From IMG/VR virus record IMGVR_UViG_3300042540_000544, positions 1 through 46,962 of that record: a DNA stretch of 46,962 nucleotides, one strand, 5' to 3'. Under the pieces are notes generated by a model. It worked only from the letters and a program-made list of their open reading frames with translations, was not told where the DNA came from and did not search any database. Position numbers and translations under genes: made by a program. Origin of the DNA: a virus. Positions 29,710 through 42,898 of the stretch are shown piece after piece (the first letter of the stretch is position 1; the number at the start of each line of letters is the position of its first letter).

Positions 29710-32172
29710 TCATTCTACATCAAACATTGCAAAGCCCCCCTTTATCTCTATTGGCTGATATACCTCCTTGTAAAGGTCTGGCATTCTGCTTTTTATAGCC
29801 CTCATGCACCACCCTGTAGCGGCACACAAGTCATGGTTTGTCAAGTCATCTAATCCCCTCATCTGACTCCACTCTTCAATTATCTCCCATATTTTTACGT
29901 ACCTAACATTATTGTTAAAGAACGTCATAATATCTCCAGCCATTTCGTTTTTCTCTGCCTCACCCGCCCAGACACCTGGCCTTGCGTCCTGCTTTCCATC
30001 AGACCCCAAATCTTTTAAAAGGTAACCATCAAAACCATTATCCCTAAAATATTCTACAAGGGCCTCCCCATCGGGCCACTCTGGGTAAACGTAGGCCCCA
30101 AGGAATACAGCTGCCTTCAACCACTCCTCGTGGTACTCTGCCTTGTCTTCAGTCTGTCTGTTGTAAGTAAGAATCCAGTCATTGCTAACCCATTCGTTTC
30201 TTGGTTTGTTGTCTGGATCTATCTGGCTATCTCGTTTGTAGAAAACCGCCGCTGCCGCATTTGATTTCTTTTTACCTACCGTGTTTCTCTTGTGGAACTT
30301 TACCGGGTCACAGCAAAGAAAGTACTTGTTCATCACCGACGGATCGGGAGCATAAATAGGCCCACGCTCCTTTGGTGGTATATAACCCTCCTCCATTGAA
30401 ACTACGGTTCTCTTGTTTCTCTGATCTTGCGGAGGTAGATAACTCATGGTCCAGCTTCCCTTGGGGTCGTTCTCAACATATACGTCCCCTCCAAACTTAT
30501 CGCCAACCCATTTAAAATTAATCTTCGTCGTAATTGGTGTTCGTAGAAATTTAAGTTCCGATATGCGGTCACGCATTTTCTCGATGGGCATACCCATGTC
30601 CTTAGGGATCACAGCAAATGCGTGCTTCCAGGTCATTGGGAAGTTCTGCTGCAACTTGATGAGCTTCTGCCACTCACGCTTGCGCTCAAAGTAATCCGCT
30701 TGGTTTAAAAGATACGACTTGGCTCCCTTAGTAATCCACTTGCCTTCATTGGACATTACAGGTTCTTTGGGGTCGTCAATAATGCTTGCCCCATACTCGT
30801 CAATGTAACCCTCAACGGCGTAGTAACCTGGAAGGAAGAAGTTTATGAGTCCTGATGGAGTTGTTCCGTTCTCGTTGCGATCGGAGAAGTGTGAGTCATT
30901 AGCAATATCAAAGAACTGCGCTCCACCCCCTGTATCCATGTCACCTACAGTAGACGGCATGATGCAGAACCCACGAATATTTTCACCTCGCTCGATGGCA
31001 GGCTTCATCGTGTTGTACCACCACGTCGGGATGTTTTGGTCCGCTGCCTTCGCGTCCGTCTTCTTTGCTGGCTCGTCACGGTAGACAAATGCAATCTCCG
31101 CTTCACCATCCGCCGCCTTTTCCGACGACGATAATGGCGTGATGAAGCACTCCATCTGTTCAGGAATAATCCCCGCCCTTGCAGCTGATGCGATTGATCC
31201 TTCGTATTGAAAACGTAACCCCTCCTTGGCCTCGATCCTTCCCCGGTAGTGTGGTCGGAAGAAAAACGGAAGTTTACTTACGGGAGTTTGTATCTGCTTG
31301 ATAAATATCTTATTAACCGCCTGGTCTTCGTTCATCGCCTGGATGATGAAGGTTTGATCGGGCATATTGAGTGTTCCCCATGTACAGAAACAACAAGCGA
31401 TTGCAGTCTTGGCGATACGACGTCCCGATACAAAGTTGATTCCGTGTACTGTCCGTTTTCCCCTGCCTACGGTTACGTTTACGTTTGGCTCGACGTAATA
31501 CTCAAACCCTTGCTCGTTCATATCGTCAACGACACTTTTTACTTCTTGGTTTGAATACTTAGTCTTTACAATGCCGTCTTCCCGATACAGGATCTTGTGT
31601 TTGTAGAACGCATCCTCTGTGGTGTAAGCATACATGAACAGATGAAACATCTTGCGTTGGTAGTCGCGGTAGTCTGGACGGTTGTTGTTCTTGCCAAAGT
31701 TCTTTACCGTCCAAAAGTTTAGGAAGAAGTAGTTGGCTCCGTTTAAGTATACAGGTTTCCCTTTAATGAAACACCAATAACCAACATACCTACGTTTAAT
31801 CTGAAGTTTGATCCACTCAATCTCCATAGCGTAGTACTTCTGATTGGACTCTATTTCCTCGTATATGTCCTCAAGTCTTACGTCGCCCATCTCCTTGTAC
31901 TTGGACTTATTGGCTATGTGTTTCTTATTGAACACAACCTCGTAGATGAGCTTTATCTTCTCTGGAACCTCTTGGTATGAAAATTTTTGTTCCCTTGGAT
32001 CTAATCCATATCCGTCCACATACGTAAGCGCCTCCTCCCTTGTTACCTCTCGCTTTAGATGGCGAGAATACCACTCTTCAAGACGAGGAAGCGGGATACG
32101 GATTGTATCCAACTCGTCGTCGTCCTCATGGAACGAAACATATTTGTCCTCCTCATCGTATTCGTACTTCAT
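29710..32172 (-). CDS. terL: terminase large subunit (820 aa)
   Basis: Packaging ATPase-nuclease. A variant Walker A (SGRRIAKTA, about residues 248-256) and Walker B (AFVYRDEPAK, about 358-367) are visible. The C-terminal RNase H-like nuclease begins at YFLCCDP (about residue 625) and continues through LLKDLGSDGKQD to a distal acidic segment (LTNHDLCAATGW). Length is long for TerL but usual for crAss-like and related phages. It follows the possible small terminase by 11 nt. This gene anchors the window as a tailed phage. Confidence 0.9.
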   Translation of the reverse strand: MKYEYDEEDKYVSFHEDDDELDTIRIPLPRLEEWYSRHLKREVTREEALTYVDGYGLDPREQKFSYQEVPEKIKLIYEVVFNKKHIANKSKYKEMGDVRLEDIYEEIESNQKYYAMEIEWIKLQIKRRYVGYWCFIKGKPVYLNGANYFFLNFWTVKNFGKNNNRPDYRDYQRKMFHLFMYAYTTEDAFYKHKILYREDGIVKTKYSNQEVKSVVDDMNEQGFEYYVEPNVNVTVGRGKRTVHGINFVSGRRIAKTAIACCFCTWGTLNMPDQTFIIQAMNEDQAVNKIFIKQIQTPVSKLPFFFRPHYRGRIEAKEGLRFQYEGSIASAARAGIIPEQMECFITPLSSSEKAADGEAEIAFVYRDEPAKKTDAKAADQNIPTWWYNTMKPAIERGENIRGFCIMPSTVGDMDTGGGAQFFDIANDSHFSDRNENGTTPSGLINFFLPGYYAVEGYIDEYGASIIDDPKEPVMSNEGKWITKGAKSYLLNQADYFERKREWQKLIKLQQNFPMTWKHAFAVIPKDMGMPIEKMRDRISELKFLRTPITTKINFKWVGDKFGGDVYVENDPKGSWTMSYLPPQDQRNKRTVVSMEEGYIPPKERGPIYAPDPSVMNKYFLCCDPVKFHKRNTVGKKKSNAAAAVFYKRDSQIDPDNKPRNEWVSNDWILTYNRQTEDKAEYHEEWLKAAVFLGAYVYPEWPDGEALVEYFRDNGFDGYLLKDLGSDGKQDARPGVWAGEAEKNEMAGDIMTFFNNNVRYVKIWEIIEEWSQMRGLDDLTNHDLCAATGWCMRAIKSRMPDLYKEVYQPIEIKGGFAMFDVE

Positions 32173-34168: not shown

Positions 34169-34376
34169 ATACCATAACTATGTATCGCTCGTGTACAGAG
34201 TACTCTGTAACATCTTGCAGTTCAACTCTGTCTACCTTACCTACAATACAAATTCGTTGCCCGACTTCAAAGTCACAGAAGTTGCCAACCTTAGTTATAA
34301 CAGCATCAATCTGTTTGTCGGTCTTGTTTTCTATTTCAATAAATACCCGGTGGTCGGGTGGAAATAAATTACTCAT
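34161..34376 (-). CDS. hypothetical leader protein of the virion operon (71 aa)
   Basis: Small beta-rich protein (DHRVFIEIENKTDKQIDAVI; GQRICIVGKVDRVELQD) that may fold as a small barrel. It is the first gene after the leftward divergent promoter (34381-34410). The start ATG is only 5 nt past the -7 box, so the message may be leaderless or nearly so. Role unknown. Confidence 0.6.
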   Translation of the reverse strand: MSNLFPPDHRVFIEIENKTDKQIDAVITKVGNFCDFEVGQRICIVGKVDRVELQDVTEYSVHERYIVMVYE

Positions 34377-34380
34377 GCTG

Positions 34381-34410
34381 CAAATATACAGAAAAATAAC
34401 ATAGTGTCAA
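34381..34410 (-). promoter_or_regulatory. leftward promoter of the virion operon
   Basis: Minus strand TTG (complement of 34408-34410), 19-nt spacer, consensus TATATTTG (complement of 34381-34388). It lies back to back with the rightward promoter at 34419-34448, with 8 nt between the two -33 boxes. Confidence 0.85.
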
Positions 34411-34418
34411 GTTCTTGC

Positions 34419-34448
34419 TTGAAAATAAGATTAAACAACGTAAATTTG
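34419..34448 (+). promoter_or_regulatory. rightward promoter of the replication block
   Basis: TTG at 34419-34421, 19-nt spacer, TAAATTTG at 34441-34448. The start site would fall at about 34453-34455. A second TTG at 34415-34417 has a 23-nt spacing and is less likely. Confidence 0.85.
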
Positions 34449-34452
34449 CGCT

Positions 34453-34644
34453 ATGTTTATCGTTTCTATCGCACTTACAATATTCTGTTTTGGGTTCATG
34501 ATGAAAAACTCTATTTACGGCTGTGGCAAGCGAACCTACAAGACTCGTAAGGAGGCTCAGCAACACTGTGACTATGATCAGCAAGTCTATATGTGCTGGG
34601 ACTGTGAAACGTGGCACATAAAAAATAATGAAGAAAATACTTGA
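34453..34644 (+). CDS. small Cys-rich, zinc-ribbon-like protein (63 aa or 48 aa)
   Basis: The core has YGCGKRTYKTRKEAQQHCDY then YMCWDCETWHIK, with Cys/His residues spaced like a small zinc-binding fold. Two starts are possible. ATG 34453 lies right at the predicted transcription start and adds a hydrophobic leader (MFIVSIALTIFCFGF), so it would be a leaderless, membrane-anchored form. ATG 34498 gives the soluble core only. The stop codon overlaps the -33 box of the next promoter. Function unknown; an early host-takeover or nucleic-acid role would fit. Confidence 0.6.
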   Translation: MFIVSIALTIFCFGFMMKNSIYGCGKRTYKTRKEAQQHCDYDQQVYMCWDCETWHIKNNEENT

Positions 34645-34671
34645 CAACCTTGCGTGGTTGTTTTATGTTTG
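34641..34671 (+). promoter_or_regulatory. promoter of the leader RNA and rep gene, with dyad in spacer
   Basis: TTG at 34641-34643, 20-nt spacer, TATGTTTG at 34664-34671. The spacer holds a perfect 6-bp inverted repeat ACAACC (34644-34649) / GGTTGT (34656-34661), a likely operator that would block RNA polymerase when bound. Confidence 0.8.
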
Positions 34672-34676
34672 CTGAA

Positions 34677-34786
34677 ATATTCCGCCCCCCGTTTGCTAAA
34701 GAACCACAGCAACCGGGGGTTGGAAGGTGGTTACAAATACTAACCAACTCAAAAGCTCGCAAAGTGGTTCTTGCGAGCTTTTTTTT
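34677..34786 (+). ncRNA. structured leader RNA with kissing loops, candidate attenuator
   Basis: Three hairpins follow the promoter. H1: CCCCCG/CGGGGG, a T-C mismatch, TTGCT/AGCAA (34686-34719), with loop AAAGAACCAC. H2: TGGTTA/TAACCA (34728-34746). H3: the terminator hairpin (34751-34782), with loop AGTGGTTC. The H1 loop GAACCAC (34701-34707) and the H3 loop GTGGTTC (34764-34770) are exact 7-nt complements, so they can kiss; GTGGTT at 34726-34732 in H2 can compete. It sits 5 nt before the replication initiator gene. It matches no riboswitch or RNA family I know. Confidence 0.65.
34751..34786 (+). terminator. intrinsic terminator just before the rep gene
   Basis: AAAAGCTCGCAA pairs with TTGCGAGCTTTT (10-12 bp), 8-nt loop, and T tract at 34779-34786. 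Only 5 nt separate the T tract from the ATG at 34792, so readthrough and translation of rep both depend on this hairpin. Confidence 0.85.
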
Positions 34787-34791
34787 ATCTT

Positions 34792-35451
34792 ATGAATACA
34801 GGACAAATTGTTAAAACCAGGAACGTGCCTTTCGCAATGGTTCCTACTGAATTTCTGAGAGACAAATCAGTTAGCCTAAAGGCAAAAGGATTGCTTTCTT
34901 TTTTACTTTCCCTCCCGCATGATTGGATTATTTACAAAAGCAAGTTGACTGATTATTTCCTAGATGGAAAGGATTCAATCTCTAGCGCTTGGGATGAATT
35001 AGAATTGCTTGGATACATACACTCTGTCAGAATTGTTGGTAACGACGGCTTGTCAAGAGGGTTTAATTATATCGTCTACTACGAGCCAACCGAAAGCGGT
35101 TTAACGGAAAGCGGAAAACCCGATATCCGAAAACCCGCCACTACATATATAGATAATACAAAGAAAGAAATAACATATAAATATACCTTCGAGGATTTTT
35201 GGCTTGCATACGACAAGAAGGTGGATAAGAAACAAACTCAAGTTGTATGGAACAAACTATCCCCTGAGGACCGGATACTTGCAGTAGAAGGCATGGGAAA
35301 TCACAAGAATGGTCGCGAACGTAAATACTGGAAAGACCCGATACGATATCTCCGAGATAAAAGGTGGGAAGACGAAACAACGAATACGAATATAAATGCA
35401 AAACAAACCAATTACAGCTATGACCCAAATGACCCAAGGAATAAATGGTAA
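34792..35451 (+). CDS. winged-helix replication initiator-like protein (219 aa)
   Basis: The N-terminal domain (residues 1-110) has the phage/plasmid initiator winged-helix pattern: FAMVPTEFLRD, VSLKAKGLLSFLLSLPHDW, then KSKLTDYFLDGKDSISSAWD and ELELLGYIHSVRI as the wing. The C-terminal part (FEDFWLAYDKKVDKKQTQVV; KDPIRYLRDKRWED) matches the tail commonly seen in phage replisome organisers. It probably binds the origin and loads the helicase. The start is ATG 34792, immediately after a terminator. It overlaps the primase-helicase gene by 56 nt. Confidence 0.75.
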   Translation: MNTGQIVKTRNVPFAMVPTEFLRDKSVSLKAKGLLSFLLSLPHDWIIYKSKLTDYFLDGKDSISSAWDELELLGYIHSVRIVGNDGLSRGFNYIVYYEPTESGLTESGKPDIRKPATTYIDNTKKEITYKYTFEDFWLAYDKKVDKKQTQVVWNKLSPEDRILAVEGMGNHKNGRERKYWKDPIRYLRDKRWEDETTNTNINAKQTNYSYDPNDPRNKW

Positions 35452-37366
35452 GGTATCCATCTACAAAGACTTCAATGACCTGCAAGGACACACAATTAGT
35501 GTACTGGGCGCACTTGAACGAATTCGGACTGGAAAGTCAAAGGACCTTGTACAAAAGGCGAGGGAAGCCAAGACCAAGAAAGAGGCAGATGATTTAAAAA
35601 AGAAACTTCCAGCAGTTTGCTTCAGTGGGCTTTTTAACAAACGAAAGGACTCTGAGCTTGTCGAACACTCAGGATACATCGTGCTTGATTTCGATAATGT
35701 CCCAAATATCACCCAAAAGAGAAATGAATTGTGCGCTATAAGACACATTACCGCAGTTTGGATATCACCTTCGGGAAATGGTGTAAAGGCTTTGGTGCAA
35801 ATTGAGTGGAAAACCAAACATAAAGAGCATTTTGATGCACTAATGGTGGAAATGCCCGACATCGACAAGACAGGACGTAATGTTTCCCGTTTATGCTTTG
35901 AGTCATACGATCCAGAATTGTATTATAATCCGAATGCAGAGGTCTACTCAAAGTTGCCTGTGAAAAAAGAAGATAGAAGGTTGCCAAAGCAGACTGCTAC
36001 AGAAACGATTAGCGATGACGACAAGATATTCCAAAACCTCTTGACGTGGATGACCTCCAAGGGTGACGCATTCCGTGAGGGAGAGAGGAATCATTTTGTG
36101 TTTAAGTTGGCTGCAAGTTGCTGCCGATTTGGGATGATGGAGGAGACGTGTTACAACCTGATGATGATGCACGTCACGCCCGACTCTAGCTTTAGTCAGA
36201 AGGAGTGCCGTCAAGCAATTCGCAGTGCGTACCGTGCCAACATGAATCAATGGAACACGGCTGAGTTTACCAAGGATCAGTTGGTTAGTAAGACTAACCA
36301 TGTGGAGGTAAAGATTGAATTAACTGAGCAGGACCTGGAAGAAATAAGCAAGGAAGACGTGATCTATGCCGAGGAGGTAATGGAACAGGCGTCCGAGATT
36401 TATCTCAAGGGTTATCAGGCCGCTATGCCACTTGGCGTTCCGTTGCTCGACAAACACTTTAAAAGGGTCAAGGGAGAATTAACAATTGTTTCCGGAATAG
36501 GAAACTATGGTAAGTCCTCATTCATGAAATGGGAAATGGTATTTCGCATCGTGAAGTTCGGTGAGAAAGTTGCCATCTTTACTCCCGAAGAACTGCCAGC
36601 AGAGCAATTTTACCACGACCTGGTGGAGATTTACTTCGGAAAGGACTGTACGCCAAGCAATTACAACAGGCCGAGTTACGACGCGTACATGAAGGTGTAC
36701 AAAATGATTGGCGAACACATCTTCATGGTATACCCCAAGAACGTAAGCCCAACTCCCGACTACGTGAAGGAGGTCTTCCTTAGCATGATTATCAAGCACG
36801 GGGTAGATCGTGTGGTCATCGACCCGTTCAATCAGATGGCAAATGACTACACCAAGGGCGGTGGACGCAGCGACAAGTACCTTGAAACCTTCCTTTCAGA
36901 CTGCACACGATTTGCGCGAAAGAACAATGTGTATTTTGATATCGTGGTTCACCCGCACAAGATGCGTAAGGGTGATGACGGCAACTACCCATGCCCAGAA
37001 GTATTTGACCTGGCAGATGGTGCTATGTGGAACAACAAGGCTGATAACATTATCATCTACCACCGTCCGTTTGCTCAGACCGCACCCGAAAGCCCTTTGT
37101 GTGAGTTTCACTCCAAGAAGATCCGCAGACAGAAAATAGTTGGAATCAAGGGATTCTTTGATTTTGAACTTGTAAGGTCTACTCGCAGGTTCACGTTCGA
37201 GGGCGTTGATTACCTTCATCAGGCGATCGAGGGTAAATATGTACAATCTGAAATCAAGCAGCCAACAGCGATTAAACCAAACAAGAGTTGGACGGATTCA
37301 AGGGAGGCAAAGGAATGGAATGAGGACATTCAGCACCCGAACGGGTACGCGGAGGCTTGGGAATGA
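35396..37366 (+). CDS. VirE_N/BT4734-like primase fused to DnaB-like helicase (656 aa)
   Basis: Residues about 15-185 show a BT4734/VirE_N-like domain, with the acidic strand SGYIVLDFDNV and the SPSGNGVKALVQI motif of an archaeo-eukaryotic primase-like fold. A linker domain (220-300) resembles the helical part seen in such proteins (GERNHFVFKLAASCCRFGM). The C-terminal half is a RecA-type helicase with Walker A GIGNYGKSS (367-375) and a Walker B-like VVIDPFNQM (near 480). Together these give a primase-helicase that would unwind and prime at the fork. ATGs at 35420 and 35429 are alternative starts. The domain architecture is typical of Bacteroidota elements. Confidence 0.8.
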   Translation: MQNKPITAMTQMTQGINGKVSIYKDFNDLQGHTISVLGALERIRTGKSKDLVQKAREAKTKKEADDLKKKLPAVCFSGLFNKRKDSELVEHSGYIVLDFDNVPNITQKRNELCAIRHITAVWISPSGNGVKALVQIEWKTKHKEHFDALMVEMPDIDKTGRNVSRLCFESYDPELYYNPNAEVYSKLPVKKEDRRLPKQTATETISDDDKIFQNLLTWMTSKGDAFREGERNHFVFKLAASCCRFGMMEETCYNLMMMHVTPDSSFSQKECRQAIRSAYRANMNQWNTAEFTKDQLVSKTNHVEVKIELTEQDLEEISKEDVIYAEEVMEQASEIYLKGYQAAMPLGVPLLDKHFKRVKGELTIVSGIGNYGKSSFMKWEMVFRIVKFGEKVAIFTPEELPAEQFYHDLVEIYFGKDCTPSNYNRPSYDAYMKVYKMIGEHIFMVYPKNVSPTPDYVKEVFLSMIIKHGVDRVVIDPFNQMANDYTKGGGRSDKYLETFLSDCTRFARKNNVYFDIVVHPHKMRKGDDGNYPCPEVFDLADGAMWNNKADNIIIYHRPFAQTAPESPLCEFHSKKIRRQKIVGIKGFFDFELVRSTRRFTFEGVDYLHQAIEGKYVQSEIKQPTAIKPNKSWTDSREAKEWNEDIQHPNGYAEAWE

Positions 37367-38212: not shown

Positions 38213-38698
38213 ATGAGATACACATTCAAAGACCTAGTAAACATGGTCCCGTCACCTCGTCGGGCTGAATTCACAAAAGTTTATGAGTACCTTCATAAAA
38301 TAGAAGATCCTCAAGAAAACGAAATAATGAAAAAGGTAAGCAAGCACTTTGAGGTTCGTGCTTCCGACATTAAAAGCCAGAAGCGTTTTGCCGATGTAGT
38401 TTTAGCCCGCCAGGTATACATGACCGCCGTAAAGGTTTGCTCAACTAAGAGCCTTGCGGAAGTTGCAAGAACGGTAAACAAAGACCACTCAACTGTATGT
38501 CACGCACTGAAAACAGTTAAAGGAGACTACGCATACAACGCAGTGCGCCGCAAAAAAATACGTCACTTCATTGCTGACTTAGATCAAACTAAACAAGAAC
38601 TTTTATTAGATTTTTTCGATGAACGGAACCCCGATATACTTGCCGCCTACACCGTCGACATTGACCGAGTTACAACACCTTCGGAATCTGAGGCATAA
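38213..38698 (+). CDS. protein with DnaA domain IV-like DNA-binding module (161 aa)
   Basis: Residues about 35-105 match the C-terminal DNA-binding domain of DnaA: IMKKVSKHFEVRASDIKSQK, an ARQVYMTAVKVCSTKSLAEV helix pair, and the signature KDHSTVCHALKTV. There is no AAA+ ATPase, so it should bind DnaA-box-like sites but not act as a full initiator. It lies in the replication block. It could mark the phage origin, compete with host DnaA, or regulate transcription. The family call is solid; the role is inference. Confidence 0.85.
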   Translation: MRYTFKDLVNMVPSPRRAEFTKVYEYLHKIEDPQENEIMKKVSKHFEVRASDIKSQKRFADVVLARQVYMTAVKVCSTKSLAEVARTVNKDHSTVCHALKTVKGDYAYNAVRRKKIRHFIADLDQTKQELLLDFFDERNPDILAAYTVDIDRVTTPSESEA

Positions 38699-42387: not shown

Positions 42388-42512
42388 AGTCAGGTGGCGG
42401 AATGGTAGACGCTAATATGGTATGTAACTGGATACGAATATACTTTGCCATATTAATACAATCCAGCAGATAGTATCTGAAGTATATGCAGGTTCGAATC
42501 CTGTCCTGACTA
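42388..42512 (+). tRNA. tRNA-Leu-like RNA with enlarged anticodon region and pseudoknot
   Basis: Canonical parts: acceptor AGTCAGG/CCTGACT (42388-42394 with 42505-42511), T8G9, D-stem GCG/CGC with a tRNA-Leu-type D loop GAATGGTAGA, T-arm GCAGG/CCTGT with TTCGAAT loop, discriminator A. Between D and T arms, instead of a 17-nt anticodon arm and variable arm, lie about 75 nt. TAATATGG (42413-42420) pairs with CCATATTA (42448-42455) around a 27-nt loop. CTGGAT (42428-42433) in that loop pairs with ATCCAG (42461-42466) beyond it, an H-type pseudoknot. CAGAT/ATCTG (42467-42479) is a hairpin in the variable-arm position. No anticodon can be assigned; CCA is not encoded. Confidence 0.6.
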
Positions 42513-42794: not shown

Positions 42795-42890
42795 AGTCAG
42801 GTGGCGGAATTGGTAGACGCTAAGCGTAGTAAGGGTGTAGAAACGACGTATAAATTTTCACCCATACAGGTTCGAGTCCTGTCCTGGCTA
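42795..42890 (+). tRNA. tRNA-Leu-like RNA without a normal anticodon arm
   Basis: Acceptor AGTCAGG/CCTGGCT (one G-T), D-stem GCG/CGC with Leu-type loop GAATTGGTAGA, and T-arm ACAGG/CCTGT with TTCGAGT loop are clear. The 45 nt between D and T arms do not form a 5-bp anticodon stem with 7-nt loop. The best pairing is GGGTG (42833-42837) with CACCC (42859-42863), leaving a 21-nt loop. D-arm and acceptor share the sequence of the first element (AGTCAGGTGGCGGAAT), so the two are related. No anticodon assignable; CCA not encoded. Confidence 0.55.
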
Positions 42891-42898
42891 CAAAACAA

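Follow-up and report, generated by a model that had tools for sequence, protein, structure and literature searches.

The window, as we call the whole 46,962-nt stretch of DNA analysed here, comes from an IMG/VR record that may be a fragment of a virus genome, and it carries a replication initiator gene, rep, with a short leader element in front of it. The parts of the element, an upstream promoter and the two genes that follow are as follows.

34441..34448, plus strand: second forward promoter with the TAnnTTTG-type box TAAATTTG, from a motif scan; also listed as TTGAAA-16-TAAATT
34641..34671, plus strand: leader promoter, with TTGACA at 34641-34646, a 17-nt spacer and TATGTT inside the TATGTTTG box at 34664-34671
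34644..34661, no strand assigned: dyad ACAACC-TTGCGT-GGTTGT in the promoter spacer, present in one copy only within the window
34676..34786, plus strand: predicted leader RNA of ~111 nt, from the positions of promoter and terminator
34680..34725, plus strand: hairpin H1 with 16 pairs, from the predicted fold and covariation
34701..34707, plus strand: kissing segment GAACCAC in the H1 loop, 7 pairs with 34764-34770
34726..34749, plus strand: hairpin H2, a variable spacer hairpin, from the predicted fold
34751..34782, plus strand: terminator hairpin T with a 12-bp stem and the 8-nt loop AGTGGTTC, from the predicted fold
34764..34770, plus strand: kissing segment GTGGTTC in the terminator loop, the exact complement of GAACCAC
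34779..34786, plus strand: T tract of the terminator, eight T
34792..35451, plus strand: replication initiator gene (rep), 219 aa, starting MNTGQIVK; phrog_270 replication initiation protein, E 2e-18
35396..37366, plus strand: primase/helicase gene, PF08800 and PriCT_1; phrog_18375 DNA primase/helicase

The gene downstream of the leader had been called a replication initiator in a preliminary description of this DNA, and the match to phrog_270 agrees with this; a weaker match is to phrog_186, a DnaD-like helicase loader (E 1e-10). The start of the primase/helicase gene overlaps the end of rep, which places the two genes in one operon. A TerL-like large terminase is encoded at 29710-32172. The nearest annotated phages in terms of terminase and primase have Flavobacterium, Cellulophaga and Maribacter as hosts, and thus a Bacteroidetes host is probable for the window as well. 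Further downstream than the replication genes, positions 38213-38698 (plus strand) encode a 161-aa protein limited to the C-terminal DNA-binding domain of DnaA (PF08299, E 2.5e-18). A 125-nt Rfam tRNA match at 42388-42512 (plus strand, 37 bits), not called by ARAGORN, looks like a tRNA carrying a long insert or variable arm; ARAGORN called a 97-nt tRNA-Leu(taa) at 42795-42891.

The consensus promoter with a dyad in its spacer, as initially described, is present, but its -10 element is better read as a Bacteroidetes TAnnTTTG -7 box, TATGTTTG at 34664-34671. In flavobacteria this box occupies positions -12 to -5 (PMC9723704), so that a start near 34676 and an RNA of ~111 nt are predicted. The spacer dyad is a possible operator; in the relative L014 it reads ACAAAC..GTTTGT, i.e., both of its sides are altered. 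The predicted fold of the leader consists of three hairpins (-45.1 kcal/mol, z = -5.5), in accord with the three-hairpin leader of about 110 nt proposed earlier, and the T tract indeed ends 5 nt before the initiator ATG (34786 and 34792). The stable GC-containing hairpin (12-bp stem, 8-nt loop) and the eight T have the sequence properties of an intrinsic terminator, at which most transcripts would be expected to stop. The second forward promoter (TAAATTTG, 34441) serves a 63-aa ORF at 34453-34644, and transcripts starting there would continue into the leader and its terminator. It forms part of a divergent pair at 34376-34450, the other member being TATATTTG at 34388 on the minus strand, which faces the leftward genes. 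It was the only minus-strand TAnnTTTG box that a consensus scan of 34300-35000 returned, the stretch 34400-35000 having none.

Homologous leaders in IMG/VR

The preliminary description had drawn attention to the exact 7-nt complementarity between the H1 loop and the terminator loop, which we find at 34701-34707 and 34764-34770. No other terminator loop in the window, scanned on both strands, is complementary to the loop of an upstream hairpin, and none arose in shuffled sequence. When the terminator loop alone was shuffled, a 7-nt match with the upstream region arose in 1.4% of trials (p ~0.014), and the match in this one leader is therefore moderately improbable, suggestive rather than decisive. 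Taken by itself, it might still be put down to a chance match of two 7-nt loops at an ordinary constitutive terminator. It is the homologues, through covariation and permutation, that make the match decisive: together with the matched loop switches described below, they refute the chance explanation, to which we give next to no weight.

Homologues were collected by searching IMG/VR with Rep proteins and one DNA pattern. The 79 distinct upstream regions obtained comprise 70 leaders, 7 Rep genes without a leader and 2 chance matches of the pattern in bacterial genomes (L246 and L247), which were left out of the leader set. All 70 leaders, assigned partly by means of a hand-made list, have a terminator that ends just 5' of the Rep ATG and a matched loop pair. 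The hand-made list supplied about 20 leaders that a simple stem finder had overlooked through choosing wrong outer stems; most of these had already been detected by an earlier independent finder. In the ~70 leaders, the H1 loop and the terminator segment are complementary over 6-8 nt, and the leaders fall into about a dozen classes that share no overall similarity in sequence. A TAnnTT[TC]G box is found 5' of H1 in 65 of the 70 distinct leaders versus 9% of random 130-nt stretches. In the seven loci without a leader (L046, L051, L067, L072, L074, L269 and L277, out of 79), coding sequence apparently reaches Rep, and some of these Rep genes are closely related to those of leader carriers. Thus, L067, L072 and L074 have a Rep close to that of the leader-bearing L047 type and yet are leaderless, with upstream coding sequence that appears to abut the gene.

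All carriers found are uncultivated contigs. The Rep of L300, used as a query, gave no further locus, the cellular genomes searched contained no carrier, and the plasmid search returned nothing but distant relatives of Rep. The nearest isolate phages gave no nucleotide match to the window. PDS1, C1_85S2P and AS73P1 were rejected as carriers because their Rep genes lie inside operons with no room for a leader, as was Panino, in which the annotated initiator adjoins its upstream gene. Six Bacteroidetes-phage records yielded one A/T-rich match only, with a scanner that also missed the window's own element, which makes its negatives weak; this match, in Tenacibaculum phage JQ and outside a leader context, was taken as chance.

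In every leader-bearing contig found, loci having been retrieved through Rep, the initiator gene directly follows the element. This bears on the view that the element yields a stable small RNA of the phage, or one that self-assembles in the manner of the phi29 pRNA, with a function unrelated to rep; the kiss would protect or oligomerise the molecule, and the position before rep would be incidental. Such an RNA would be compact and protected by its terminator, and pairing of loops between molecules is known from head-to-tail RNA assembly (pRNA AACC/GGUU, PMC7357161). The element, however, always stands before the same initiator, even in L045 (~2768-2960), where the same leader type precedes a Rep that is homologous in its C-terminal half but has had its N-terminal domain swapped for an unrelated one. 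Nor is a packaging motor of the phi29 type expected, since the window has an ordinary large terminase, and the window holds no second copy of the element, a point tempered by retrieval through Rep, which would miss copies elsewhere. We consider this view improbable. The domain replacement in L045 implies that leader and initiator domains recombine separately.

Covariation and loop types

In the class to which the window belongs, the seven pairs of the kiss helix are paired in 100% of cells (n=31 sequences). Three of these pairs are altered on both sides (in 15, 15 and 1 sequences) and none on one side only. The loop types of this class are GAACCAC/GTGGTTC, GAGCAAC/GTTGCTC and GAGTCAC/GTGACTC. 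In the same 31 sequences, the H1 stem is paired in 95.8% of cells with 7 pairs altered on both sides, and the T stem in 98.3% with 4 such pairs. H2 is paired in just 67-75% of cells, and several leader classes are without it. The suggestion of a competing GTGGTT in H2 was not borne out: apart from this poor pairing and the absence of H2 from several classes, H2 is essentially unchanged in L017, L018 and L037, whose two kissing loops are now GAGCAAC/GTTGCTC. The preliminary description had named a lack of conservation of the hairpins or of the loop complementarity in homologues as grounds for refutation; its idea has otherwise survived this test.

Leaders of distant Rep relatives have no overall sequence in common with the window and nonetheless retain the same plan: a promoter box is followed by a hairpin that bears loop x, a linker, a terminator whose loop is x', the T tract and the ATG. 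Examples of loop pairs from these relatives are as follows.

L059: GTGGCTT/AAGCCAC
L047: GGGAAAC/GTTTCCC
L073: GTAGTATG/CATACTAC
L052: GTCGCAG/CTGCGAC
L053: GTGCAG/CTGCAC
L160: GTGGAGT/ACTCCAC
L167: TGCGAC/GTCGCA
L281: TCCGTACA/TGTACGGA
L300: GATAAGGG/CCCTTATC

The leader's own terminator is the unique best partner of the H1 loop in 24 of 24 loop types from about a dozen classes. The summed best match of the 24 types is 166, and random re-pairings reach 108 at most (0 of 100,000 permutations), the test having been made on hairpin loops only, hand-picked from predicted structures with a possible bias. It was repeated in this form since a first, crude control, which set upstream regions against loops taken from other classes, gave a distribution with a long tail. 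A MAFFT alignment of class 2 that misplaced the loops was set aside. In the L047 and L167 types, the terminator-side segment is not apical and is flanked by an inner hairpin and the 3' arm, and thus it is complementarity that is kept rather than a single loop geometry. The terminator arm of L053 and L176 contains an AGTA/GAAA internal loop, resembling a sarcin-ricin motif, that separates its outer stem from the kissing loop. The covariation and the 24-type permutation bear out the loop-loop pairing proposed from the single sequence; that it is real and kept by selection is well supported by these comparisons.

The comparison of classes also speaks to the idea of a leader that senses a ligand or a protein, be it a riboswitch or autoregulation by Rep binding, with the kiss as no more than one part of the receptor fold. 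A compact fold of three hairpins, two of them in loop-loop contact ahead of a terminator, would suit such a role, and Rep matches phage families of HTH-type DNA-binding proteins. What persists between classes, however, is limited to the terminator and the two complementary segments, and no common unpaired core of the kind that a riboswitch would have was seen. The leader class even changes among close Rep relatives (L073 and L076 have Rep sequences 95.8% identical over 450 nt and leaders of different classes), and there is no Rfam riboswitch match. A sensing role of this kind appears very improbable.

Matched loop switches between close relatives

The loop types differ even between phages that are otherwise nearly identical. 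L167 and L195 share 97.0% identity over 5.8 kb and differ at 5.3% of fourfold sites, and within ~180 nt 5' of the ATG their sole differences are GCG->CTC in H1 and CGC->GAG in T, so that 6 of 12-14 kiss bases differ and 0 elsewhere in the leader. In the leaders of L011 and L045 (97.3% identity over 2.9 kb), the changes are confined to 2+2 loop positions and a single position 3' of the terminator stem. L280, L281 and L282 carry three loop types despite flanks that are mostly 95-97% identical, and L101 and L152, 95.7% identical, differ in loop type as well. Among Rep 5' ends at least 90% identical, 28 of 48 pairs, which are non-independent, differ in loop type. The close pairs were selected from many, and the strength of the switching argument is qualitative.

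That new loop types arise through concerted matched changes is well supported by these pairs. Recombination cannot easily produce two separate matched 3-nt changes with identical intervening sequence. The loops appear to evolve faster than neutral sites while staying matched, similarly to antisense-RNA incompatibility loops, and a rate above that of synonymous sites, without loss of complementarity, points to positive selection favouring novel matched types. Compensatory change combined with unusual mutation could mimic such diversification.

The switches speak against a cis-only attenuator, in which the kiss between H1 and T inside one nascent RNA would set the efficiency of termination, by stabilising or delaying the terminator, with no role in trans. 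Both partners are always on the same short transcript, and their 6-8 bp would contribute about -6 to -11 kcal/mol as a duplex alone. In classes without H2, an A/T-rich linker of 15-20 nt is just long enough for a stacked rod, and the terminator-arm internal loops are conserved in some classes (AGTA/GAAA in L053 and L176), as in a designed fold. A structural helix, however, should not outpace neutral sites as the kiss does in L167 and L195, and type changes among close relatives hit two to three pairs at once. A purely structural kiss would explain the conservation but not the fast matched change, whereas a type-specific interaction in trans would explain both; the concerted switches between near-identical phages thus favour a type-specific trans component, which the preliminary description had put forward as just one of its options.

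Geometry was considered by a rough length estimate, with helix lengths entered by hand. A stacked rod of H1, kiss and T would measure 76-98 A overall and 92-98 A in classes 1 and 7, and the linker with H2 folded would reach ~30-80 A, too short for the rod in these two classes. The folded H2 and, in L280-L282, a 12-nt linker would therefore hinder a stacked kiss in cis. For two molecules lying next to each other, with H1 paired to T' and H1' to T, short linkers would suffice, and the kiss would fit such a pair more easily than a single molecule. The argument is suggestive, as kissing complexes bend and H2 may open, in which case the linker would suffice for a kiss in cis by the same estimate. 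The high effective concentration of the loops within one molecule could also let the cis kiss form first and mask an action in trans. We regard action in cis only as possible, though on the unlikely side.

A possible type-specific attenuator acting in trans

The reading that we prefer, and hold to be an evenly balanced proposition, is that the self-complementary RNA running from promoter to terminator is an attenuator that represses rep in trans in a type-specific manner; the trans action, its sign and termination are what we infer in this reading. The attenuator would stand before the phage replication operon as an RNA bearing two mutually complementary loops, one in H1 and one in T. Short terminated RNAs would build up in proportion to the number of phage genome copies and would pair with leaders of their own type, whether on nascent or on read-through transcripts, through H1-T' and H1'-T kisses. 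Kissing would hold the terminator closed and rep off, and the outcome would be copy-number feedback within a phage and mutual exclusion between phages sharing a loop type. New matched loops would let phages escape the RNA of a resident, which would account for the diversification. The kiss might instead delay the terminator, giving the opposite sign.

Plasmids and satellite P4 provide the classic cases in which RNA controls replication initiation, and the closest comparisons come from there. The P4 CI RNA is a small untranslated leader RNA that acts in trans, pairs with the transcript of its own replication operon and terminates transcription before the replication genes (reviewed in PMC4825925). 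Our leader shares with CI and its seqA-seqB-seqC sites the same-strand complementarity to its own operon transcript and the position upstream of rep and primase, and in both sequence complementarity would define the type. P4, on the other hand, is a satellite with lysogeny, whereas no phage integrase was found in 28 contigs of the phages described here; the CI RNA is processed from a longer transcript, whereas our leader is predicted to extend unprocessed from promoter to terminator; and CI pairs with separate target sites, whereas here the target is the leader's own terminator loop within one 111-nt unit.

The kissing loops of ColE1 RNAI/RNAII are 7 nt long. Loop complementarity and type switching recall plasmid antisense control (ColE1 RNAI/RNAII, IncK/IncB RNAI, pT181, pIP501), where loop-loop kissing governs initiation or rep; kissing may set the specificity in trans here as well. 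In IncK plasmids single loop bases set incompatibility (PMC10724649), and altered loops of plasmid antisense RNAs create new compatibility groups (PMC9458437, PMC10724649). The plasmid antisense regulator, however, is encoded on the opposite strand, whereas both partners here lie on the same RNA strand. The leader would work like P4 CI and plasmid antisense control but departs from them in strand or layout. The phi29 pRNA also has two distinct, mutually complementary loops on one RNA, which pair between molecules (PMC7357161), but its loops pair over 4 bp, and it belongs to a packaging motor rather than to a terminator leader before rep. Amino-acid operon attenuators (the Trp, Phe and Thr leaders of Rfam) are short leaders from promoter to terminator before an operon; they scored 20-23 bits, far under their gathering thresholds of 41-55 bits, and, unlike them, our leader precedes rep and has a loop-loop kiss in place of alternative hairpins.

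In accord with the preliminary description, no described family with this layout was found. No Rfam 15 family covers the element at the gathering threshold, nor at E up to 10, the best sub-threshold score being 22.9 bits versus a gathering threshold of 55. Literature searches, largely of papers available outside subscription, returned no description of such a leader layout, nothing alike for Bacteroidetes phages and no terminator-leader family with two self-complementary loops.

Immunity-type control is usual in lysogeny. The 28 contigs without an integrase give no sign of lysogeny, which counts against the trans reading, as do the seven leaderless Rep genes; the setting would instead be copy-number feedback and competition in lytic co-infection. 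We propose, tentatively and with slightly less than even confidence, that virulent Bacteroidetes phages use a same-strand self-complementary attenuator as a type-specific quorum and exclusion signal, in which terminated leaders would dimerise through double kissing with leaders of their own loop type and close the terminator before rep, and matched loops would diversify under frequency-dependent selection, giving free-living phages RNA incompatibility types.

Even if the kiss acts in cis only, these leaders constitute a widespread RNA family that is united almost only by complementarity, of a kind apt to be overlooked by sequence-based searches. The 24 natural loop types also offer a series of kissing terminators, putatively orthogonal, that is ready for use. 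Should the trans reading be true, these phages would carry fast-diversifying RNA incompatibility types, and phage-phage competition at the level of replication would become directly testable from sequence.
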